Below are positions 1,320-55,560 of a DNA stretch of 64,000 nt, piece after piece (position 1 is the first letter of the stretch; the number at the start of each line of letters is the position of its first letter). The position numbers and the translations under genes are program-made. This DNA is from Ophiura sarsii (taxonomy: Eukaryota > Echinodermata > Ophiuroidea > Amphilepidida > Ophiuridae). The notes beneath the pieces are model-generated. The model was not told the DNA's origin, did no database searches, and saw only the letters and a program-made list of their open reading frames with translations. Location: contig CM069452.1 in the NCBI GenBank assembly GCA_035610835.1, positions 70,776,919 through 70,840,918 on the forward strand. The letters run 5' to 3'.

Positions 1320-2250
1320 TTCAAGCTATCTGTCACTCAATGACCCTCTGTACAGCTTATAACTCAATGACTCACATGTTACATTGTCTGTCTGTCACTC
1401 ATCAAGCCCACAGTCACTTAAAGACCCTCTGTACAGCTTATAACTCAATGGCTCATGTGTTACATTGTCTGTCTGTCACTCATCAAGCTCACAGTCACTT
1501 AATGACCCTCTGTACAGCTTATAACTCAATGACTCATGTGTTACATTGTCTGTCAGTCATCAAGCTCACAGTCACTTAATGACCCTCTGTACAGCTTATA
1601 ACTCAATGACTCATGTGTTACATTGTCTGTCTGTCACTCATCAAGCTCACTGTCACTTAAAGACCCTCTGTACAGCTTATAACTCAATGACTCATGTGTT
1701 ACATTGTCTGTCTGTCACTCATCAAGCTCACAGTCACTTAAAGACCCTCTGTACAGCTTATAACTCAATGACTCATGTGTTACATTGTCTGTCTGTCACT
1801 CATCAAGCTCACAGTCACTTAATGACCCTCTGTACAGCTTATAACTCAATGACTCATGTGTTACATTGTCTGTCTGTCACTCATCAAGCTCACAGTCACT
1901 TAAAGACCCTCTGTACAGCTTATAACTCAATGACTCGTGTGTTACATTGTCTGTCTGTCACTCATCAAGCTCACAGTCACTTAAAGACCCTCTGTACAGC
2001 TTATAACTCAATGACTCACGTATTACATTGTCTGTCTGTTACTCATCAAGCTCACTGTCACTTAAAGACCCTCTGTACAGCTTATAACTCAATGACTCAT
2101 GTGTTACATTGTCTGTCTGTCACTCATCAAGCTCACAGTCACTTAAAGACCCTCTGTACAGCTTATAACTCAATGACTCATGCGTTACATTGTCTGTCAC
2201 TCATCAAGCTCACAGTCACTTAAAGACCATGACTCACGTATTACAGTGTC
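1320..2250. repeat. 81-bp tandem satellite, 11 units
   Basis: Units begin GACCCTCTGTACAGCTTAT at 1342, 1423, 1504, 1581, 1662, 1743, 1824, 1905, 1986, 2067 and 2148. The period is 81 bp except for one 77-bp unit (1504-1580) that lost 4 bp. Units are nearly identical, suggesting recent expansion or homogenisation. Because 81 is divisible by three the array stays open for 225 codons with a repeating 27-residue peptide; the 4-bp deletion shifts the frame. I treat this as a satellite, not a gene. Confidence 0.95.
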
Positions 2251-2455
2251 ACTTAATAACCCTCTGAAGATGCAAAAGTACCCGACTGGTGGGTAAAACA
2301 TTTGAAACTCGCAGTGTAACACTGTAACTTGTAAGTGAGTTATTACACTGGCTGGTGGAATTTCTGTCGGGCAGGTATTATTTGAGTTACCTGACCGACT
2401 GGTTGGTTGAAATGAATCTGGCCCTAGGCTATAGTATCTACATACAAGTACACTC

Positions 2456-2678
2456 AGGCGACAGTTCAAAATGTTCTCAAAATGTTTCAAAAAATGTCAA
2501 CATTATTGAATTCCATCACCATATTTGGAATATCCATGACATGTGCATTAAAATAAGTACAAACATGCCTAGTATTGGTTCAGTATTCCTTGAGATAGAT
2601 TTTGAAAGTGGGAAAAGGTTTAAGTGAAAAATCTGTTTTGCATATGTTAAACTAATAGTGTGGTGTGGAAAGTGTTAA
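2456..2678 (-). mobile_element. Family A TTAA element, truncated copy
   Basis: This is the reverse complement of the neighbouring copy at 2675-2921. It has the family A interior (a phrase near CTATCTCAAGGATTACTGAACC in the other orientation) and the outer end GGAAAGTGTTAA. The left end is truncated near 2456. It shares its terminal TTAA at 2675-2678 with the next copy. It is non-coding. Confidence 0.75.
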
Positions 2679-2921
2679 CGCTTTCCACGCGGCTATTATT
2701 TTTACCATATACAAAATAGATTTTTCAGAAACCTTTCATAATTGTCAATGTCTATCTCAAGGATTACTGAACCAATACTAGGCATGTTTGTACTTATTTC
2801 AATGCATTTCTCATGGTGATTCCAAATATGGTTATGAAATTCAATAACTATGACATTTTTGAAACATTTTGTGAATATTTGGAGTGTCGTCTGCAGCCGC
2901 CTGCCGCATGGAAAGCGTTAA
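2675..2921 (+). mobile_element. Family A TTAA element, full-length
   Basis: A 247-bp element bounded by TTAA. It begins TTAACGCTTTCCACGCGGC and ends with the inverted partner GCCGCATGGAAAGCGTTAA, giving terminal inverted repeats of about 19 bp with one mismatch. Other copies lie at 7116-7358, 17246-17493, 21611-21807, 32387-32870 and 40920-41075. TTAA flanks are known for piggyBac- and Kolobok-type transposons. No transposase is present, so it is a MITE and the superfamily is inferred. Confidence 0.85.
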
Positions 2922-4214
2922 GTATACAACATATATACCCTGATTAGGTCATGCTTTTAAATGGCAACAATATTAGGTACTTTAATATAGGAGTACCTCC
3001 CCCTTGCCGAGGTTAAACAAATGGCTTACGTGCAGTTACAGTAGTACAGTAAACTTTCATTCTCAAGGAAGTGCCGATTCACTTGTTTTGTGGTGGTGCT
3101 GATGTTAAGTTTTATAGGGGAAAATCCCTACTATTTTACCAGTTAGGCAAAGTGCATTATGTGCATCATACTCAACTGTTAAGAGCTGTTAAGGTAGTTG
3201 AGAAATTATCAATTGGTTTCAATATAAGAATGGATTTTGATTGTACATGTATGACCCCAGAAAATTCATCACACGTTGGAACTAAATTGTTTCATCCTAA
3301 AACCGCTGGAGTCAACTCCAGTGTCAGTAGAATCTTTTGAATTGTGTTAACAGCTCGCCCCATTCGCTTTATCCCAACACTTACAAATAACAGCTATCTG
3401 TGTTGCCAAAGTTGTCTGAACTGTAGAACTGCACTTTTATATAAACGCATAATGAGCTTATGTAATGAAGTGAAGGGAACATGAGAGGGAGAGGTAGTGA
3501 AGAGAAAGTTCCCTAGAATACAAATTCCCCCCAGTCACGACCTTTGTCCACCCAGTTTCCCCCAGTCAGCTCAAGCTCCACCCCATTTTACCCCCCCCCC
3601 CCCCAAAAAAAAAGTGTTAAAAGGGGTGTGTGGGGTAATTCCCCAAATTTGTTTGATTGACCCGGATGCTTTTAGGCGATATTGAGTAGGGACACGACCA
3701 ATTGTAATTGTAGCATTGTAGTCATCCATATATTTTCTCCTTTTGTGTTCCTCCCTCTCCCCCTCTTCTTTTCCCTCTTTGCTTTCCTTTTTCAAAATAG
3801 ATTTGCTGGGGCGGGTGGGGTGGGTCACGGTGACACCCCAACACTCCCCATATCGATCTCCCTGGGGGGGGGGGGGGGGGGGGCTGTCAGCATATACTTG
3901 GTGCAGTAGTTTGTACTATAACTCACTTCAAGTGAAGGACTACCCTGGGCTACATAATATTATATCCTAAAGAACCATTGTTGATATTAGTAATAGTAAA
4001 AGATTGTGGCATAGGCAAAGTTTGTATTATTAAACACATCGGTTATAAACTTCTTCTTTCATCAGAAATAAGTTTTGATCTTTGTTGTTTTAATACAAAA
4101 GGGAAGACACATTAGCATCTAACCACAGTAGTTAGACCTACACCTAGCTCATAAAGTCCCTGCTCAGGTGCTTTGAGGTTGACTAATTCAAAATATATAA
4201 TCGGTACCAAAAAT
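2922..4214. other. No gene recognised; poly-C and poly-G tracts
   Basis: Nothing coding is supported. An 89-codon frame near 3071-3340 has no recognisable motif and no clear splice context. A poly-C run of about 15 is followed by A residues near 3590-3612, and a G run of about 18 lies near 3865-3883. Confidence 0.5.
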
Positions 4215-4666
4215 CTGAGATATACATTAAATGAGCAAATTTCTTCTCCGCAGTTTTGATACCTCATTCAACAAAATCGAATGGACACTTTTAAAGTTAT
4301 GTGGATTTCAATGACCGCGCATGCAACAGAAAAGTGGCACTAGGTATAGGAATCATTGATTTGTGTGTGATAACTGTGTGCTATCTGAACGTGACAGATG
4401 AATGGGTCTTTAGTGATAACCGCAATGTGCGGGACAAAGGGTGTATCTGGCTGTGAAGAATATAAGTCTTAGCTGATAAGCTGTGAGTTTTTCAGTGCGT
4501 AAATCCATAGACGGGTAAAACATTGATTTTTACCGTCTATGGAAAATCACACACAAATCAATGATTTCCTATACCTAGTGCCACTTTTCTGTTGCATGCG
4601 CGGTCATTGAAATCGACATAACTTTAAAAGTATCCATTCGATTTTGTTGAATGAGGTATATCTCAG
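4215..4666. mobile_element. Palindromic (fold-back) element
   Basis: The ends CTGAGATATAC (4215) and GTATATCTCAG (4656-4666) are exact inverted partners. Inside, about 120 bp at 4258-4378 matches the reverse complement of 4546-4660 almost base for base. The left arm has about 30 extra bases next to the terminus. A smaller hairpin around CCATAGACGG lies at 4505-4542. There is no open frame of note. It is best described as a non-autonomous hairpin MITE. Confidence 0.8.
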
Positions 4667-5560
4667 TACATACTATACATACGCACAGACACACATTACA
4701 TGATGACAAAATAAATTAATTTTTTTAATTTTTTTTTTTAATCACCTGCTAATCATAGCCGAAAATGAAAGCAAAGAGTCAGAAACTTTTTAAAGTATAA
4801 AAATTGAACAAAGTAATAAAATACTTCATTCAATTTTTATATTTTATTTTATTTTATTAATTTTTTTTACCTTTTTAAAAATATTTATTGTTATTTTAAT
4901 TTTTTCCTCCCTCAAAATAATAAAAAATATTCAGGGTCGGCGATGTATTTAAGGTCGGTTGGGTTAGGCCAATCAAAACTTTTTTTAGGCCTTATGTGCA
5001 CCACTACTCAGGTTTTCAAACATTAGGGGTCAAAGGTCACACATGGGGGTCAAAACGTGATTTTAACTTAAAACGTGTTTGCAATTTAGTGAAATGACCT
5101 AGGATCGTCAGAATTTGTCAACATATTCCTTTTTTGACCGTACGCATATATAATACTAATAGTTCGGTTTTTAAAATCAAAAAATATTTGGGGTCACTAG
5201 GGGTTAAAATGTAAATTTTCAATCCTCGCACTAAAAATGCTATTTTTTCGAGAGGAAATGACCCATGATTATCAGAATTGGTCAAAAGATTTTTTGTATC
5301 CATGTACACATAGGGTCTTAAGCGATTAAAAGTGGCATGTCATATGGGGTCACTAGGGGTCACTGACTTAAACAGGGGTAGAATATAAGACATACTCCGA
5401 TTTTGACCGGATTTGTTTTATCTTGTAGGTATTGATAAGACAAGAAAAAAAATCAATCATTTTCTTGGGGTCAAAGGTCAACATGGGTCACTAGGGGTCA
5501 AAAGGTAAATTTTCACTCCTCGCACTCAAAATGCTATATTTTTCGGAAAAAATGCTATAT
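4667..5560. repeat. Decayed GGGGTCA-type repeats in AT-rich DNA
   Basis: An AT-rich stretch (4700-4930) is followed by diverged copies of a phrase containing GGGGTCACTAGGGGTCAAAA and CCTCGCACTNAAAATGCTAT at about 5150-5240 and 5465-5545, with a weaker copy at 5020-5130. No gene is supported. Confidence 0.6.
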
Positions 5561-5760
5561 AATACTATGTTCTAAGGGAGACTTTGCACATTTGAGAGGG
5601 GCTGCAGAGGGTGGGTGTCGCAGACATATAATACTATGTTCTATGGGAGACTTTGCAAATTTGAGAGGGACAGTCTAGGGAGGGGGGGGGGGGCGATGTC
5701 GCAGACATATTTAATACTATGTTCTATGGGAGACTTTGCAAAATTTTGGATGTTTGTATA
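5561..5760. repeat. About 70-bp tandem repeat, 3 copies
   Basis: The phrase AATACTATGTTCTATGGGAG recurs near 5561, 5630 and 5714, each followed by a variant of ACTTTGCAAATTTGAGAGGGG. The same phrase in weaker form occurs at 58590-58640, next to a hAT-like terminus. The array may therefore be the interior of a hAT-like element. Confidence 0.8.
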
Positions 5761-5923
5761 TTAAAACAAATGTATAAGAACATTAAAGTCATTAGTAAAG
5801 CAAAATTTTATCTTCTCTAAAAGTATCTTTAGCAAAAAAATAAAATAAAATAAAAGGTAGTCGGCCACCGACCGACTCGCTTTTATTTTTTCGTTTGAAC
5901 AAACAAACTATTTTTTGTTTCTG

Positions 5924-6130
5924 ATCACAGTTTTAGAGTGAATTTAGAGTGAAAATAAACAGGACAGTTTATTATTGCTTTTTAAACTATGATTTTGAAG
6001 TAATTAGGAATCGTATCGCTCTGTAACTCATCAGAATATATTTATGATTTGTGATCAAAAATGTAAATCTGCAAGAAGTTCTGCTTTAATTTTTTTTTAT
6101 CAAGGATAGAGGGCGTCCCATGGAAATTGT
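5924..6130 (-). mobile_element. Family C element, half copy
   Basis: This matches one arm and the centre of family C (GAATTTAGAGTGAAAATAAAC, then AAGTAATTAGGAATCGTATCG, ending GGGCGTCCCATGGAAAT). It lacks the terminal TTAA and the other arm. Confidence 0.7.
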
Positions 6131-6405
6131 TCGAGCATTTTGTATGACTCCAACATTATATATGTAGTGTTTTCCCCCTTCTTCTCCTGATCAATGTTGA
6201 ATCCCATAATTTGTCCACCATCTGCACAGGGCCTCGCAACATTGATCGGTGGGGAAGGGGGAGGGGTATGATGAAGGGGATTCTTCATGCTATCATAAAC
6301 ATGTTTCTATTTTCACATGACCCAATTGGTTCAAATAACATGATGTCAATTGGGGTTTATGTTCGAACACATTTTCTGTTCTGAAAAGATTGTCTATAAA
6401 ATCGC

Positions 6406-24133: not shown

Positions 24134-25228
24134 TTATGGCGGGTGATATTCCCAAACCATGATGCCATCTATGGCCTCACTTAGGGCGTAGTCGAGAACA
24201 ATGACAAAGAGATATGGAGCCAAGGTGTCACCTTGTAGTACTCCAGCCAGTATTTCAAATTCCTCAGGTGATATAACCTTTGCCTTGGTGTCCTTGTATA
24301 TTTCTGCAATCGCATTTGTAAGCTGCTCAGGTATACCATAGGCCTTCAGAATTCGCAGCATTCGTCCCCTATGTATTGTGTCAAACGCCTTCTTGAAGTC
24401 TTTAAAGGTGGCTGGCAGGTTGTTTGATCTAATTCCCTCAATAATTCTTCGGAGGGTAAGAATGTGGCCAACCGTGGTACGTCCAACTCGAAAGCCATTT
24501 TGATTAGCTCTCAAGTGGATGTCAAGCTCCGGTCTGATTCTGTTGAGTATCATCTTGTTGTATAGCTCGGCAACAATTGAGCTCAGACTTATTCCACGGT
24601 AGTTGCCTCCCAAACTGAGATCACCTGATTTTGGTATTGGTATTATGTTGAGAATAGACCATTGGTCTGGCTTTTCCCCGTTCATCAAGGCATCGTTGCA
24701 GAAGTCCAGTATTATATTATCCAAATCACATCTTTTGAGCATTTCAGGTGTGATACCATCTTCCCCACTGCTTTTCCCCTCTACAAGTGCCTTCTTATTA
24801 GCCCTCACATATTCCTCCAAGTCAAAGGGTCCTTCTTTTATGCTGAGATTTGATAGTACTGGGGCAATTTCCTCATCTTCATTACTTATGTGCTGTGGGC
24901 TCCCAAGTAGATTTTTGAAATGAGTATACCAATTATCTAGTCTCTCCTTTTGCGTGGATCCTTTGATTTGTCCTTTTCTTGTAGTCAATCTTCCTGATAT
25001 TTTGTTGATCAGTTTCCAACTCTTACCATGCTTGCAGTTTATGTGGGCATTTTCTACCTCTCTAAGCTTATTGGTAAGGTCTTCCTCTTTCACATGATCA
25101 TAAGCAGTAGCGTAGCCAGGGTCACTTGTCAGGGGGGGCAAAGATTTTTTTTTTTCCCCGGTGAACGGATGTAGTCCAGCTGTAGTTTGTTGCCGCTTGG
25201 GCTGACATATGTCCACATGACTCCACAA
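24134..25228 (-). pseudogene. RTE-like reverse transcriptase fragment
   Basis: A 364-codon frame. Recognisable RT blocks include SSGEDGITPEMLKRCD, IIPIPKSGDLSLGGNYRGIS, QNGFRVGRTTVGHIL, FKDFKKAFDTIHRGRM (block with the first catalytic Asp context) and LAGVLQGDTLAPYLFVIVLD. The order and wording match RTE-clade elements. The protein ends in unrelated residues directly after DYALSEAIDG, before the FADD motif, and the N-terminal 40 residues include sequence from a hAT-like insertion. It is therefore inactive. It is encoded opposite to the direction of the nearby duplications. Confidence 0.9.
25105..25160. mobile_element. hAT-like terminus fragment inside the RTE copy
   Basis: CAGTAGCGTAGCCAGG followed by a GGGGGGGCAAAGA stretch and a T-run resembles the terminal repeat of hAT-type MITEs. 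No opposite end was found, so only a fragment is claimed. Confidence 0.5.
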
Positions 25229-25507
25229 CTTTTTTCTTGCGGAAGTAAGTTATTTGCGATTATAAGATCTTTCTCTTTAGCCAAGTCTGCTAGGTACTCT
25301 CAATTTCTATTTGTGTCATCATGGTAAGTGAATTTGGCATCATCCTTTCCAAAGCCTAGCATTGAAGTCGCCAACAACAAGCAAGATGTTGTGTGCTGGA
25401 ATGGAGTCTATTGCCCCCTTTAGACTATTCTGTTGTAATGATCTCCTACGATGTCTTCATCCGCCACATTTGTAGGGCAGTAGGTCACCACTACAATTGT
25501 TGCTGGG

Positions 25508-27215: not shown

Positions 27216-27634
27216 ATTTTTTTTAATTTAAAGTATATGGCTCATTCCATGAAGTTGGGGCATATTATGTAACATCCAAGTGAAATTTTCAAAATGGATA
27301 TTTTCCAACTCTTTCTTCTTTTTTAGGTTCTACATTTACCAAAGTCCAATGTAGAACTTTTTTTTAATGTAACATTTGGTGTAAAATAACCGCACATGTT
27401 CAACAGTTGGATGACACATTAGGTTCCATCGTCCAGTATAGTTTGAGCCAAGTTTCAAATATTGTCTGACCATGGTCTGACAGGGGCTGACATATTGAAT
27501 TGGCTATCACGCTAGTATCTGTGTGTGAACATGGTGTGAACATGGTGTGAATGGGGTGATACACCCTGGACCAACAGTCTAGAAGATCCGAAAAGGCACT
27601 GCTGTAACCACGCTGCAACACTCCTGCTATTGAC

Positions 27635-28125
27635 ATATCTTCAGCCCCATTGGGCTACATTTTAAACTAAAATCTGCTATATAATTAGTTTTTTTTTAAA
27701 TTTGAACTTAATATTTGACAAAAGCTGAAATTACATTATTTTTTAAACAAATTAAAATTCAAACATTGATTTTCTTAACGCAAGAACATTGAAAAGTCGT
27801 GTGTTGGGCTAACAAAAGTCCACCCAAGAAAAACCCACTAAAAAGTGAATTCAACACATTTACCACATGCTGGGAATACCCAGAGGCTGTCTGTCTACAA
27901 TCTAGCTACACAAATTGACACACACGGTGACTTTCAGCCGAATTGGGCTAAGTTCTAAAACTAATATCTGATCCAGGGATAATATATTGTGACTTTTTTC
28001 AAATTTTGAACTTTTGACTTTAACCAAATTTAACCAAATTCGAAATATTACTAATTGCAATGACAAATTGAATTTCTCAACACAACAACTTTTAAAAGTA
28101 AGACTTTGGGCGGGACTTTGGGCTT
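27635..28125 (+). repeat. Diverged direct repeat pair
   Basis: TTCAGCCCCATTGGGCTA at about 27640 and TTCAGCCGAATTGGGCTA at about 27932 begin two related stretches of about 195 bp. Both continue with AAACTAAAATCTG-like, AAATTTGAACTT-like and TTCTCAACACAACAAC-like segments. Confidence 0.7.
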
Positions 28126-28597
28126 CTTTCCAGCAAGAAGATTATCCAATCTAATTGCGTCTAAATAAACCTGTGTATCAGTAAACTTTGATCATTTTCT
28201 GTCAGAATACTTTTAGCTAATTTCGTTAATATCCTATGGAATTCACTCGTTCGACCAGCAAATAATATAAACATTATTCATTTATGAACATTAACACAAG
28301 AAAAAAAGCAACAACTGTAATAATTACATTTCTAAAGTTCCCATTAATACCGCTCTAGTACCAAGTTCTTCCACTATGGACAATACCAGGATACCACCCC
28401 TGACGCGACGGGGCCTTGAGCCGTGCTTGGCCAGCGATCCTAGTAGCCAGGCTAGGAAATACACAGGTGTGGTGCAATAAAGCAAATAAATCAGCCAAAG
28501 AAAGTTATAATTTATTACCCTGGATACCAAGGCATATCCGTGGTCACAAAAAGCTCAAACTGTAAAGGGGACGGAACCGTAATGATTTCCAAAAATC

Positions 28598-30931
28598 CTG
28601 ATGCTACATGGACACCATTTCCCATTTCCATATCATTTTCTAATAAATTAGCTTAAGATGTGGGCCAAGTATCTATACCTCAATTAACTACTTGGAACCA
28701 CAAATACATGAAAAGAAACCAGATTTGTCTAGGTTGAACATAACTTAACGAACAAGACATCATAGATTAACTGTTTTATGTAAAAACTCATTGAAAAGTG
28801 ACTCTTTATTTTGCAATTTGTATAATGAATTTAAATAAAGTACATATCAATATTTGTTTGATGTAAAGTACTCTATAAACCATGCACATTGATTACATTA
28901 TAGTCATAAAGTAAGTATATGAAGTATTATTTACCTGTATAATGTTATAAAATGCACTACCGATGCTACATTGACACCGCGTCTTGTAACATTGTTAATA
29001 ATAAGACTATTCATACTGTTACAATTATTTGAGTGTGAATGGTTTGTCTACTTGTTCATCATATCAAGTAGATACACAGAGTGAATTGCTTGAAATTTAT
29101 CTAAACACTGTTCATGTAAAATTTACCTTTTCTGTGTACCTAAGTATTACGATGCTACATGGACACCATGCCCGAAAATATTTGGAACAGCTTGAACAGG
29201 TGCATCTTTTTCAGATCAATAGAGAGGATGTACTATGATGTTAACTTTTTATGTTATAAGCACACGATAAAATTAATAACATGGATTGTAAAACTACAAA
29301 TTACACAAAAAGATAACCTGCCATGAAGCATAAAACATAATTACCTATGATACACATACACCATTTCTTACAATTACACAATAACAATACACCATTGATC
29401 AAAGAAACTTAAGATGTCCACTGAAACAAACTTCATGCAGTGTTGTTCTTAAAGTACCCTTTGTGATCTTAGTCTCTTTGCTCGTTTCTGATTGAATCAT
29501 CCTCTATTATTGATAAAGATGATTGAAAAGTTTGATCACTTAAAAAGTCAGTTTGCAAAAAAATAATTTAATTGCCATGATGGATTTCTTTGGAAAGGTA
29601 CTAGTTTTTGAAAATGATGGGTTCCTTGTCTTCATCTCCATAAATTCCAGGAAGATAGAACTGTCTTCTGAATTAATGTCAAGAACCAGCAAAGCAAAAC
29701 AAAATAAACCATATGGCTTAGTATCTTCATGGAACATTGTGTATTGATATTGGAGTAGATTATTTATTCATGTTGCACTTTTTGTGTTGCAGGAAAATAT
29801 TTATATTAAAATCATGCTGGAGTATTTTATTTATTATTCATTTAACATGAAAAAGAATAGCAAAGGATAGAGAACTTAAATGATTTACAATTATTTGTTT
29901 TATTTATAGTAAATAAAACTAAAATAAGGGAATGTTTATTGTGAATTTAGTGAAATGCTAATGGAAATGGTGTCCATGTAGCATTGTGTATTAATATATT
30001 TCATTAGATATACATCTCTCATAATATGCCTTTTTTTCTGTAAAGTGTAGTAAAATGTAGGCAATGTTTTGAATGTTTTGGGTGATGGATAATTTCGAAT
30101 GGGGTAATTGTTTTAGTCTAATTAGGCAAATGTTATGAAATGCTACATGGACATGGTGTCCATGTAGCATCGTATTGGTAAGCTATATTATTAGCATTAA
30201 AAGAACAAAAAATAATTCATTATTAACTTCAAAGTTTATTAATGATGTGATTCTACAAAAAAATTACAATTTCAACGAACTATAACGATACCCAATGCAA
30301 AATATTGCCCATGCTATGCCCGATGCTACATGGACGCCAAATTATTATGGCGTCCGTGACTCAAAATTAATATCATAACATGAAAAGAAATTCTGATTCA
30401 GTGTTTCCCTTTCAATAAAAATGCATTAATAAATACAGACATACAAGCAACATTAAGAAATAATTACAATCGCACTTACCATTCACAAAACTATCCAATG
30501 TTTACATTTTGATGCTACATAAAAGTCCCGATGCTACAACGGGACACCAGCGACTGAAACCTTGATAAAACTAGCCCACATGTGGCAAATTCCAAACAAA
30601 CCTGATAGCTATTGACCTCTATCCTTACAAAAACAAATATGGAATGTTTTATTTATCTCCAGGGGGGGATTCCCACAAATTGCATAGGATGTTTATCACG
30701 ATGCTACATTTTATGGTTAGGACACCATTCACACGGCACGGTATACTTTTTCATGAATATATGGAATGGTCTTCATGAAATTTATTCTCATTTGCCATAG
30801 TTTTCAATTGATAAATGCTCTTAATTTTGGAAAATAATTTAAAAATGTATGATAGAGAACTACCCCCATTCAGCAATGAAAACTCCCGATGCTACACATG
30901 TATATTTTGTGGACACCGTGCGTAGCATCGG
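28598..30931. repeat. Dispersed bipartite motif GATGCTACA + GGACACC
   Basis: Copies (forward unless marked): 28600, 28962, 29151, 29968 (reverse), 30140 (overlapping a reverse copy ending at 30172), 30322, 30511 (left half), 30531, 30701 and 30889, with an extra reverse half GTAGCATCGG at 30922-30931. The two halves are usually one base apart, but the gap grows to about 11 at 30701 and about 14 at 30889. Outside this segment I found no copy in the window. It is non-coding. Confidence 0.88.
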
Positions 30932-31375
30932 AAAGGCAATTTTCATGTTGCTTGGGTGAAAAATCAGTCCAGCGTGACGAGGTGTTTTGGTCAGTAAACA
31001 ATGAATACATGTATCTTTTATTAATCAAATCGATTTCCAAGCAATTCTATGATAGTTTTGCTTACATAAAACTCATATTAATTGTTGTGTTTTCCATGTC
31101 ACGTTATTTAGCAAAAATGGTCTTGGACACCACCTCATTTTTTGTTTTATTTTTCTTCAAGGAAGGGTCGATTTTCAATTTTTTTTTTCATGGCTCAATA
31201 CTATAACCTAGTACTGTTTTTGGACACTAAATTTTTTTGATATACACATAGAGTAAAACAGTTTATAAGCTGCCTAAAGTACCAAATTCTGCTATTTTAA
31301 CAAATACCCCAACTTCATGGAATGAGCCATATTGTAAGTACATTGTAATACATCTTTAAAGGACATTAGGCTGTA

Positions 31376-32197
31376 TTCATAAAAATAAGTAATTACTAAC
31401 TAGTAAATGCTATAAGTAAAAGCAACAGCTAGGTAAGTAAAAGGTCTAGTCTAAGCAATTGCTAAAAATGTTATTCATAACCATTTGCTATATGATTACA
31501 GGTGTTACTTGCCACAGCTAGTAAGTTCTCAAGTAGTTGCTATTGTACTACAGTACCATCTACAAAAGGGGGTGGCAAAATGGTTCACTATTAGAGACAT
31601 TTTGTAGTCTTGCTCATCCCTAGCTAATTTAAGTTACTCATTAGTATCTCTTATTTCGCCAACAGACGTTTGGTACCCTGGATCTGACAAATATGCCAAA
31701 GTCGTCTCCATTTGTGCCACTGGTGTCAAACGCCCACCCTGAGTCTCGGTATTTGGTGCATGGTATGAAGGTGTCTGCAAGCCATTCCACATTTTGTTTG
31801 TCAAACCTAAATAAAGTTATGTAACTTAGTGGTAGGGTTGACTTCATCACGATTAAGCCTGATGTTATACACCTTAAGTTGTGGTCTTCGAGGTAAAAAC
31901 ATGACAGAAGATGTGATATGTCTGTACTGGCTAAACAGCAAGCCACAAATGAGGTGCTTGTACAATCACTAGTAAATGCTAGTCAAAGGTCATTTTTATG
32001 AATACAAATTGAAGTAGGTGCTAATTTCTCTGGCATTTACTTATAAGTAAAATAAGCAATTACTAATGCTTAAAATGTGCAGCTTTTACTTCAAAGTCAT
32101 TGCTTATTTCTATGAATAAACATTTAAGTAAAAGGTTAGTAAAAGGGGGTTGTTACTTTAGTAAAAGCAATTACTTATTTTTATGAATACGGCCTAA
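31376..32197. mobile_element. Decayed PIF/Harbinger-like element
   Basis: The left end TTAGGCTGTATTCATAAAAA (31376) pairs with the right end TTTTTATGAATACGGCCTAA (32178-32197), then AATAAGTAATT with AATTACTTATT. The interior is rich in GTAAAAGCAA and AAGTAATTAC phrases. It contains the transposase-like frame at 31641-31946 on the minus strand. Harbinger elements normally have 3-bp TWA target duplications; here TTA and TAA flank the GGC/GCC ends, which is only loosely consistent. Confidence 0.65.
31641..31946 (-). pseudogene. Possible Harbinger-type nuclease fragment
   Basis: A 101-codon frame with a short stretch, LFRFDKQNVEWLADTFIP, that resembles the region just upstream of the helix-turn-helix in PIF/Harbinger (HARBI1-like) nucleases, where a pattern of the type YRxxKxxVxWLAxxLxP is common. 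The rest is not recognisable and the DDE residues are absent. The match is short; its location within a TIR element with Harbinger-like ends adds support. It could still be a chance resemblance. Confidence 0.45.
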
Positions 32198-32386
32198 TAT
32201 CTCAGTTTGGCGTTTTCATAAAGACGAACTTGAAAATGATAACTCCGCTTTAGGAAGTCCAATTAAAGAAAAAGTGCCATTGTAAAGCTGAAGATCTCTA
32301 CTTTAATAATCAATTACTAATTCAATTTTGATATCTTGCCCAATTGTGTCTGGGTTCGGTAGAACACGTCACAAATGTTTAACATG

Positions 32387-43269: not shown

Positions 43270-43740
43270 ATCGTTTATATAGTTGCTATTATGATGCTAA
43301 ATAGCGCGAATTTGAAAACATTTTGAAAATTGCAAAGAGGTGCTATTGTATAATTTTTGAAATTAGCGCATATTAGCATCAAAGTAGCAAGTCGTTTATG
43401 TTGTTGCTATTATGATGCTAAATAGCGCGAATATGAAACATTTTGAAAATTGCAAAGAGGTGCTATTGAGTAAGTTTTGATATTAGCGCATATTAGCATC
43501 AAATTAGCAATTCGTTTATATAGTTGCTATTATGATGCTAAATAGCGCGAATATGAAACATTTTGAAAAATTGTGTTAGTTTTGATATTAGCGCATATTA
43601 GCATCAAATTAGCAAGTCGTTTATATAGTTGCTATTATGATGCTAAATAGCGCGAATATGAAACATTCTGAAAATTGTAAAGAGGTGGTATTGTATAAGT
43701 TTTGAAATTAGTGCATACTAGAATCAAAAAAGCAACAGTT
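43270..43740 (+). repeat. About 120-bp tandem repeat, 4 copies
   Basis: GTTGCTATTATGATGCTAAA starts at 43282, 43403, 43523 and 43628. The fourth interval is about 15 bp shorter. Units contain TAGCGCGAATATGAAACATT and ATTAGCGCATATTAGCATCA. Confidence 0.92.
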
Positions 43741-53964: not shown

Positions 53965-55560
53965 TATAAGGTATTGTGTGTGAAATGGCTGTTGTACATC
54001 TTGATCACAGGGTTAGAAATTTCTGTCCCTATGAAGACAGTACAAACTTGTTCATATGGTTAGAAATTTCTGTCCCTATGAAGACTTATAATGTTGGTGA
54101 AATGGCTATAACATCCAAAGGCACATACTTGATCATAGGGTTAGAAATTTCTGTCCCTACGAAGACTCTTATTGTTGGTAAAATGGCATAACATTCAACG
54201 GTATACACTTGATCATAGGGTTAGAAATTTCTGTTCCTTATGAAGACTTGGAGTGTTGGTAAAATGCCTATACCATTCATAAGTACAAACTTGTTCATAG
54301 GGTTAGAAATTTCTGTCCCTATGAAGACTCTAATTGTTGGTAAAATGGCATAACATTCAATGGTATAAACTTGATCATAGGGTTAGAAATTTCTGTCCCT
54401 ATGAAGACTTAGTGTTTACCAACACTCTAGGTACAAACTTGTTCATAGGGTTAGAAATGTCTGTCCCTTTGAAGACTTACTTGATCATAGGGTTAGAAAT
54501 GTTTGTACCTATGAAGATTTTGATCGTTGGTAAAATGGCTATAACATTCAATCATAGGGTTAGAAATTTCTGTCCCTATGAAGACTTAGAATGTTGGTGA
54601 AATGGCTATAACATCCAAAGGTATAAACTTGATCATAGGGTTAGAAATTTCTGTCCCTATGAAGACTTAGAGTGTTGGCAAAATGCCTATAACATCCAAA
54701 GGTATAAACTTGATGATAGGGTTAGAAATTTCTGTCCCTATGAAGACTCTAATTGTTGGTAAAATGGCATAACATTCAACGGTATACACTTGATCATAGG
54801 GTTAGAAATTTCTGTCCCTATGAAGACTCTTAATTGTTTGTGAAATGGCTATAACATTCAAAGGTATTAACTTGTTCATATGGTTAGAAATTTCTGTCCC
54901 TATGAAGACTCTAATTGTTGGTAAAATGGCTATAACATTCAACGGTATACACTTGATCATAGGGTTAGAAATGTCTGTCCCTGTGAAGACTCTTAAATGT
55001 TTGTGAAATGGCTATAAAACATCCAAAGGTAAAACCTTGATCATAGAGTTAGAAATTTCTGTCCCTATGAAGATTTTGATTGATGGTAAAATGCCTATAA
55101 CATTCATAAGTACAAACTTGTTCATAGGGTTAGAAATTTCTGTCCCTATGAAGACTTAGTAGAATGTTTGTGAAATGGCTATAACATCCAAAGGTATAAA
55201 CTTGATCATAGGGTTAGCAATTTCTGTTCCTATGAAGACTTGGGGTGTGTGTGAAATGGCTATCACATCGAGGGTACACACACGACCACAGGGTTAGATA
55301 TTTATGTCCTTATGAAGACTTGGACTGTGTGTGAAATGGCTATATCAATTAAATGTACACACTTGACTATAGGGTTAGAAATTCGTGTCCCTAAGAAGGC
55401 TTGGATCATCTGTGAAATGGCTATAACAATCAAATATACAAACTTGATCATAGGGCTAGAAATTCCTGTCCTTATGAAGACTAGGATACATACATAAATA
55501 CATACAAATAACACACACAAAAAAGTGAAATGGCTACAACAATCAAAGGCAAACACGGAC
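53965..55560 (+). repeat. About 80-bp tandem satellite, roughly 20 units
   Basis: The core GGGTTAGAAATTTCTGTCCC followed by TATGAAGACT recurs from about 54010 to 55460, usually every 79-82 bp, with some shortened units (for example near 54060 and 54490). Spacer words such as TTGGTAAAATGGCTATAACA and ACTTGATCATA are shared. Units diverge toward the right end. Frames are repeat artefacts. Confidence 0.93.

Follow-up and report, generated by a model that had tools for sequence, protein, structure and literature searches.

A young non-autonomous DNA transposon of Ophiura sarsii with a regular, mostly polar row of two-part sites

Introduction

Repeated protein-binding motifs near transposon ends are already known from the CACTA and hAT groups. 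In CACTA elements, according to the available text of a study on them (PMC2613891), the ends are conserved while the internal repeats bound by TNPA vary from family to family and form palindromes, the helpers are diverse, and the binding protein can act in trans on defective elements. In hAT elements such as Herves, short repeated motifs within the ends serve as binding sites of the transposase (PMC3143072, in the part available). The present analysis concerns a 64,000-nucleotide stretch of the Ophiura sarsii genome (assembly GCA_035610835.1, contig CM069452.1), called the window below, and within it positions 27235..31332, which are a copy, target-site duplications included, of a non-autonomous DNA transposon named here family 1 (the numbering of families 1-4 is our own). 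The thing itself is ordinary, a young non-autonomous transposon, but its interior is unusual. Along it runs a row of two-part sites, mostly polar and regular in its spacing, and comparison with sister families makes it a well-supported reading that this row has been held in position across diverged families.

The likeness to CACTA elements (En/Spm, soybean Tgm) lies in conserved ends, family-specific internal motifs that form palindromes, and motifs of two domains (PMC2613891, available text). The locus differs from them in that its ends are not of the CACTA type, the target duplication is 4 bp instead of 3, the sites are distributed element-wide at steps of about 190 bp and not densely near the ends, and one half of the site is constant across families. 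In Herves, unlike here, the motif is single and subterminal. The foldback element Tetris of Drosophila virilis is also non-autonomous, with internal repeats of about 220 bp; as far as the available text describes them, these lie in long inverted repeats and are still alike, whereas the element described here has 22-bp ends and diverged spacers (PMC4079207). Among host proteins, vertebrate REST/NRSF offers a comparison, as one protein reads two half-sites at flexible spacing, and about 5% of its sites have altered half-site spacing, mostly 0-1 bp or expanded by 7-11 bp (PMC2573930, available text). Those are, however, host regulatory sites and not a row inside a transposon.

The element, its ends and its copies

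The ends of the element and the interruption in the window copy are located as follows.

27235..27238, no strand: left target-site duplication ATAT, from equal 4-mers across terminus pairs
27239..27260, + strand: left terminal inverted repeat, GGCTCATTCCATGAAGTTGGGG
27417..28584 (ends +/- 1-2 bp), no strand: nested insertion of about 1.17 kb, foreign to the element, with imperfect inverted ends, from comparison with other copies
31307..31328, - strand: right terminal inverted repeat
31329..31332, no strand: right target-site duplication ATAT, from equal 4-mers across terminus pairs

A sequence-only reading of the window had proposed a 4.1-kb mobile element bounded by a 26-bp inverted repeat. 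The mobile element stood, since many copies lie between the same termini, and both lengths had to be corrected. The inverted arms match at 28 of 29 bases, with the outer 26 perfect (27235-27260 / 31307-31332), and a 25-mer of the terminus has no further copy in the window at up to 6 mismatches. Among 39 terminus pairs drawn from 44 sequences (one row, of L159, joins the ends of two nested copies), the flanking 4-mers are equal in 37, namely 35 times ATAT, once ATGT (L135) and once ATTT (L144), and unequal in L133 and L179; the sample leans to ATAT because 20 copies were picked via exact TATGG matches. ATGT and ATTT agree as direct, not inverted, repeats, which argues for a 4-bp target duplication. 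The outer ATAT thus acts as target-site duplication, and the inverted repeat proper is 22 bp. A search of the fetched sequences found no empty target site. The other full-length copies fetched lack 27417-28584, so that this piece is an insertion in the window copy and the element measures 2.93 kb (consensus 2,928-2,929 bp). The insertion itself ends in CATTAGGTTCC / TCATTACGGTTCC, imperfectly inverted, and contains a decayed internal direct repeat (27640-27797 and 27933-28099, 67%).

The ends and the 4-bp target speak against the CACTA, hAT and TTAA types. The ends read GGCTCATTCC or GGGT..., which are not CACTA-type ends, and the equality over 4 bp in 37/39 pairs does not agree with the 3-bp duplication of that group. 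Target duplications of hAT elements are 8 bp long, and by eye no repeat beyond the 4-mers was seen in the rows inspected. The piggyBac and Kolobok elements use TTAA, which is found at none of the 39 pairs, 35 being ATAT. A place among Tc1/mariner elements is conceivable, since these duplicate TA and ATAT contains TA, but the ATGT and ATTT pairs (L135, L144) point to 4 bp. A 4-bp duplication is also that of the Sola superfamily, a likeness in duplication length alone. Long inverted repeats of the foldback (Tetris-like) kind are absent, the arms being only 29 bp, and at 2,928-2,929 bp the consensus exceeds the size of miniature inverted-repeat transposable elements, below about 800 bp.

The abundance of the element was determined in the source assembly (1,573,662,873 bases, 1.57 Gb). 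The terminus gave 1,143 + 1,147 = 2,290 matches at up to 3 mismatches (control 0). These near-equal strand counts fit one pair per copy, hence some 1,145 copies if both ends were kept everywhere, and family 1 comprises about 1,100 copies. The motif pair GATGCTACA-N(0-16)-GGACACC occurs at 3,459 + 3,424 = 6,883 places (reversed control 0 + 2). Eighteen regions were fetched, covering about 100 listed of these 6,883 places, all on contig C1, and each of the 18 carries termini of family 1 or of a sister family, at both ends in 15 and at one end in 3 (L134, L140, L147). Both outcomes that the sequence-only reading had named as fatal to it, a motif scattered without the termini and termini without other copies, were thus not encountered, and the genome search it had proposed, with both motif pair and terminus, returned copies far above the controls.

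Alignment of full-length copies, likewise proposed, showed that the family is young. Thirty copies (terminus pairs 2,850-3,000 bp apart only, the window copy left out) diverge from their consensus by 0.41-1.58%, with a mean of 0.90%. A smaller alignment comprised the window copy and 11 full-length copies; L132, L134, L135, L140, L143, L146 and L147 were left out of it as truncated, interrupted, gapped or belonging to another family. The available text on the Amphiura filiformis genome describes a recent repeat burst, mostly of DNA transposons, with a divergence peak at 2% (PMC11310086). In two fetched regions, copies are nested or stand next to each other. In L159 (516-6483), a family-1 copy is nested inside another, with ATAT on both sides of the inner copy where the family consensus has ATAC, and in L132 (1853-5407), two internally deleted family-1 copies stand end to end, their ATAT edges separated by the two bases GT.

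The transposon of which the segment is a copy is thus a non-autonomous one that was amplified recently, with no recognisable protein. The six longest stop-to-stop frames of the segment (75-108 aa) contain no Pfam family at its cut-off, and one sub-threshold match among them (E 0.085) was disregarded. A protein search with frame 30880-31203 returned one record, P0121, whose letters are also in a frame of copy L158, so that P0121 comes from another element copy; frame 27403-27654, which overlaps the nested insertion, returned none. Rfam gave no match inside the segment and one tRNA-like match near the cut-off elsewhere in the window. In viral contigs, the terminus had no match, the exact 17-mer was present at 2 places in related contigs, and a loose pattern gave at least 120 stretches, with a single match per listed row, which were taken as chance. 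The motif and terminus letters had no match in literature text, a result that says nothing about repeat databases such as Repbase or Dfam, where the family may well be listed already.

The row of sites in the window copy

Within the window, the two halves of the site are concentrated in the element. Nine exact copies of GATGCTACA lie in 27236-31332 and none in the rest of the window, and GGACACC occurs 8 times in the segment and 3 times outside. As an ordered pair, GATGCTACA-N(0-16)-GGACACC has 6 exact occurrences, and 9 if up to one mismatch in each half is allowed, always within the segment; with a degenerate copy, a partial arm of a palindrome and the lone halves added, the total comes to about 11 or a few more, which bears out the earlier count of about eleven copies confined to the segment. 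In each of 200 dinucleotide shuffles, the top 9-mer reached at most 7 copies, against 9 observed. With the insertion discounted, the array spans nearly the whole element. Its sites are the following.

28600..28616, + strand: site 1, left half, gap 1, right half; the right half starts 209 bp from the consensus left end
28962..28978, + strand: site 2, gap 1; right half of TTGACACC type in the window copy, GGACACC in the consensus
29151..29167, + strand: site 3, gap 1
29346..29362, + strand: degenerate site TATGATACACATACACC, not counted as a site elsewhere in this text
29969..29985, - strand: inverted site, gap 1, left half AATGCTACA
30139..30171, both strands: palindromic double site, 30155-30171 on - plus a partial site on +
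30322..30355, + strand: site with GGACGCC, gap 1, then inverted right half GGCGTCC
30511..30548, + strand: doubled left half (30511-30519, 30530-30538), gap 3, right half
30700..30726, + strand: site with gap 11
30888..30929, + strand: composite last full site, with left half, gap 14, right half, short linker and inverted left half (30921-30929); same make-up in families 2-4
31125..31131, + strand: lone right half GGACACC, 205 bp from the consensus right end

Most sites point one way, family 1 having an inverted block mid-element, and neighbouring right halves are mostly 176-221 bp apart. At the nine sites, the gap between the halves is 1 bp in six and 3, 11 and 14 bp in the others. The variable gap noticed earlier is therefore real within a copy, but it does not wander from copy to copy, as the same gap variants recur in the same order across the family-1 copies listed.

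The regular steps allow another explanation, namely that the row is what remains of an ancient tandem repeat of some 190 bp within the element and has no present function. Four of the eight distances between neighbouring left halves in the window copy are 188-189 bp, which only 1 in 200,000 random placements reaches, and a few units are still alike at about 68-70%, so that the row may have begun as a tandem repeat; the lack of constraint on the motif within the family (discussed below) would also fit. Spacers and flanks of the window-copy sites are, however, on average at background similarity when compared with random stretches of the region, while the halves are nearly perfect across units (the anchors had been chosen for the motif). 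Since the halves and their layout moreover recur in families whose spacers are mostly unalignable, we consider a mere tandem relic improbable.

Another suggestion was that the sites act as RNA hairpins, and single-strand DNA hairpins can be considered with them, for example small-RNA precursors in the case of RNA. Folding is clearly better than in shuffles at four of the nine sites (z -3.3, -4.9, -3.8 and -3.9), and palindromic double sites recur in families 2 and 3 and in the element L186 described below. The other five sites lack a clear fold (z 0.30, -1.84, -0.25, -1.36 and -0.35), the segment has no match in Rfam, and base pairing does not need identical letters in the same orientation site after site. 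As a general account of the row, hairpins are not supported, and we hold this explanation to be very unlikely.

Sister families and their half-sites

A search of the source assembly for related ends gave 111 + 111 matches (control 0). Family 2 (L146, 1.76 kb) has the ends GGGTATGTCCATGAAGTTGGG and is about 62% identical to family 1 over the first 258 bases and about 58% over the last 450; a global alignment of the two was not used for counts. Family 3 (L183, 1.78 kb) and family 4 (L182, longer) end in GGGTCATTCC or GGGTTATTCC and are about 95% identical to each other over the first 558 bases. A fifth type, L186, has only an end of about 60 bp and the sites in common with family 3. Two family-2 copies are themselves interrupted. 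That of L184 contains a long interspersed nuclear element (LINE; 1694-6367) whose 1,266-aa frame is uninterrupted and has a 291-aa frame upstream of it, and that of L181 (1145-7588) holds an insertion of about 6.6 kb, with near-identical translated stretches at both ends, which suggest long terminal direct repeats.

Across these families, the right half stays the same, save variants such as GGACGCC and GGACTCC. The left half exists in two main versions, GATGCTACA and a GTTTCAC-TGTAAC type, one per family group. In L183, all seven GGACACC copies are preceded by a left half ending GTAAC and none by ATGCTACA; its best form is GTTTCAC-RTGTAAC, some copies are degenerate, and the gaps are 1, 2, 9 or 10. 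The best family-3 left form followed by GGACACC was found 67 + 81 = 148 times in the source assembly (control 0). In family 2, some left halves are GCACTACA instead of ATGCTACA. The idea that the motif consists of two separable halves gained support from this, with the gap varying inside one copy and a constant right half joined to different left halves between families. More elaborate arrangements are shared too. Palindromic double sites are present in families 1-4 and in L186, a doubled left half before a single right half in families 1 and 2, and the composite last full site in families 1-4, where the gap is 14, 14, 10 and 10, respectively, and a short linker and an inverted left half follow the right half.

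These half-sites bear on the possibility that a host protein, of the multi-zinc-finger or the architectural kind, binds the row, which the transposon would then use as a promoter, an insulator or a silencing shield. A host factor that reads bipartite sites at flexible spacing does exist in REST (PMC2573930, available text), and the gaps here range from 1 to 14 bp. The left half differs, however, between families of one genome, which a single host factor does not predict, and the 18 regions examined show no scatter of the motif pair beyond the elements. We regard a host protein as an unlikely, if conceivable, reader of the row.

Conserved layout across families

The distances between sites appear to persist across families where the letters do not, which is the remarkable feature of this comparison. 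Counted from the left end, the first right half starts at 209, 207, 208 and 208 bp in families 1 to 4 and at 208 bp in L186, which makes five element types, two of which are close relatives. Counted from the right end, the last five right halves stand at 998/788/610/419/205 bp in family 1 and at 993/784/606/418/204 bp in family 2, an agreement that none of 1,000,000 random sets equalled when four gaps were drawn from 120-259 bp. The spacers between these last five sites align with z 1.4, -0.6, -1.0 and 3.7 relative to shuffles; for the ends of the two families, the values are 5.2 (left end, 30-190) and 0.2 (right end). Between families 2 and 3, six sites correspond, and their differences sum to 97 bp; 2 of 200,000 random placements were as close, as were 3 of 33,086 in which neighbouring sites were kept 120 bp or more apart. 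The five spacers of these two families align with z 0.6, 1.8, -0.3, -0.8 and 1.8. In these layout tests, the family-2 variants GGACTCC and TGGACACA were counted as right halves. Altogether, 8 of the 9 spacers tested between sister families are not clearly alignable above shuffles.

The right half also stands out in a control count of 7-mers. On the + strand, GGACACC and the overlapping GACACCA are the only ones with four or more copies in each of families 1 and 3. Four 7-mers have three or more copies in each of families 2 and 3, and correspondence within 20 bp is seen for GGACACC (4 of 5 positions) and GACACCA (2 of 3) and for neither of the other two.

A possible binding platform

It is proposed that the row of sites forms a binding platform for a protein with two DNA-reading modules, probably a transposase or a TNPA-like helper, which an autonomous partner would supply; we give this proposal roughly an even chance. 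One module would read the constant half GGACACC and the other the half that differs between families. The reasoning is that one half is constant and the other is common to all or nearly all sites of an element yet differs between families, as expected of a two-module protein with one family-specific module, and the precedents of the CACTA helper and the hAT transposase suggest the nature of the protein. It might load along the element and help to pair the ends for excision and reinsertion. More speculatively, neighbouring sites are mostly about 175-220 bp apart, near the nucleosome repeat, and could thus be kept in linkers, where they would be readable in chromatin.

Several observations weigh against this proposal and against the conserved layout on which it draws. 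Within family 1, the motif is as variable as the rest of the element, with changes at 26 of 4,999 motif bases and at 453 of 71,714 elsewhere in 30 copies (P 0.40), so that no selection is seen on copies once inserted, and any constraint must be looked for in comparisons between families. The matched sites were chosen by eye before the layout tests, and the layout match is partly due to shared descent; families 1 and 2 can still be aligned at their ends and in one spacer. The transposase arrays known from other elements are found near the ends, whereas the sites described here fill the whole element. The terminus resembles the site weakly, and the partial match of CTTCATGGA(CA) with CTACATGGA(CA) (P 0.006 in family 2, 0.08 in families 1 and 3) is only a hint. 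Finally, terminus-based searches of the assembly did not find the autonomous element or its transposase. Apart from these points, an apparent conservation of the motif after insertion, seen in the 12-copy alignment (7 of 2,000 against 250 of 31,593 non-CpG bases), was dropped once the 30 copies gave P 0.40.

The search for the partner, a relative encoding a transposase between the same termini as envisaged in the sequence-only reading, went through several kinds of pattern. The longer terminus pairs that were opened proved to be interrupted or nested copies (L156-L160) and the family-2 copies with the LTR-like insertion (L181; LTR, long terminal repeat) and with the LINE (L184). Behind exact family-1 ends, the sequence was nearly always that of family 1 itself; other inner bases gave 1 and 8 matches, point variants by eye, and such patterns miss any element sharing those inner bases. 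Wider end patterns gave 222, 357 and 181 matches, of which about the first 100 listed held only known or near-known classes; one of these patterns for the most part recovered families 2 and 3 again, shifted by one base.

A broader proposal, which we put forward tentatively and consider possible at best, is that these families represent an undescribed cut-and-paste group with the ends GGNNNNTCCATGAAGTTGGG and a 4-bp ATAT-type target, whose transposition complex would assemble on a mostly polar, nucleosome-spaced row of sites. The constant half would serve as an anchor and the other as the password of a family, switched together with the DNA-binding domain of the partner.

Other features of the window

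Directly downstream of the element, inverted arms (31362-31397 / 32201-32166, 92%) delimit 31362-32201, possibly a second short transposon. On the - strand, a reverse-transcriptase frame at 24137-25249 belongs to a non-LTR retrotransposon and shares 88% identity with one relative over 74% of its length; among the 120 relatives listed of 1,764, those named are from Amphiura filiformis, Branchiostoma lanceolatum, a sea urchin and two fishes. Three further stretches, 1314-2228, 43271-43678 and 54040-55482, are long tandem arrays, whose periods range from 81 to 165 bp.

Implications

Sister families in one genome here keep the positions of their sites, in places to within 5 bp, with most spacers unalignable. 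If the proposed reading is true, spacing, anchor half and specificity half would be separable by comparison alone, and whether a transposition protein and its sites have evolved together would become testable in a very recently mobile family. The site code could also guide the search for the autonomous element.

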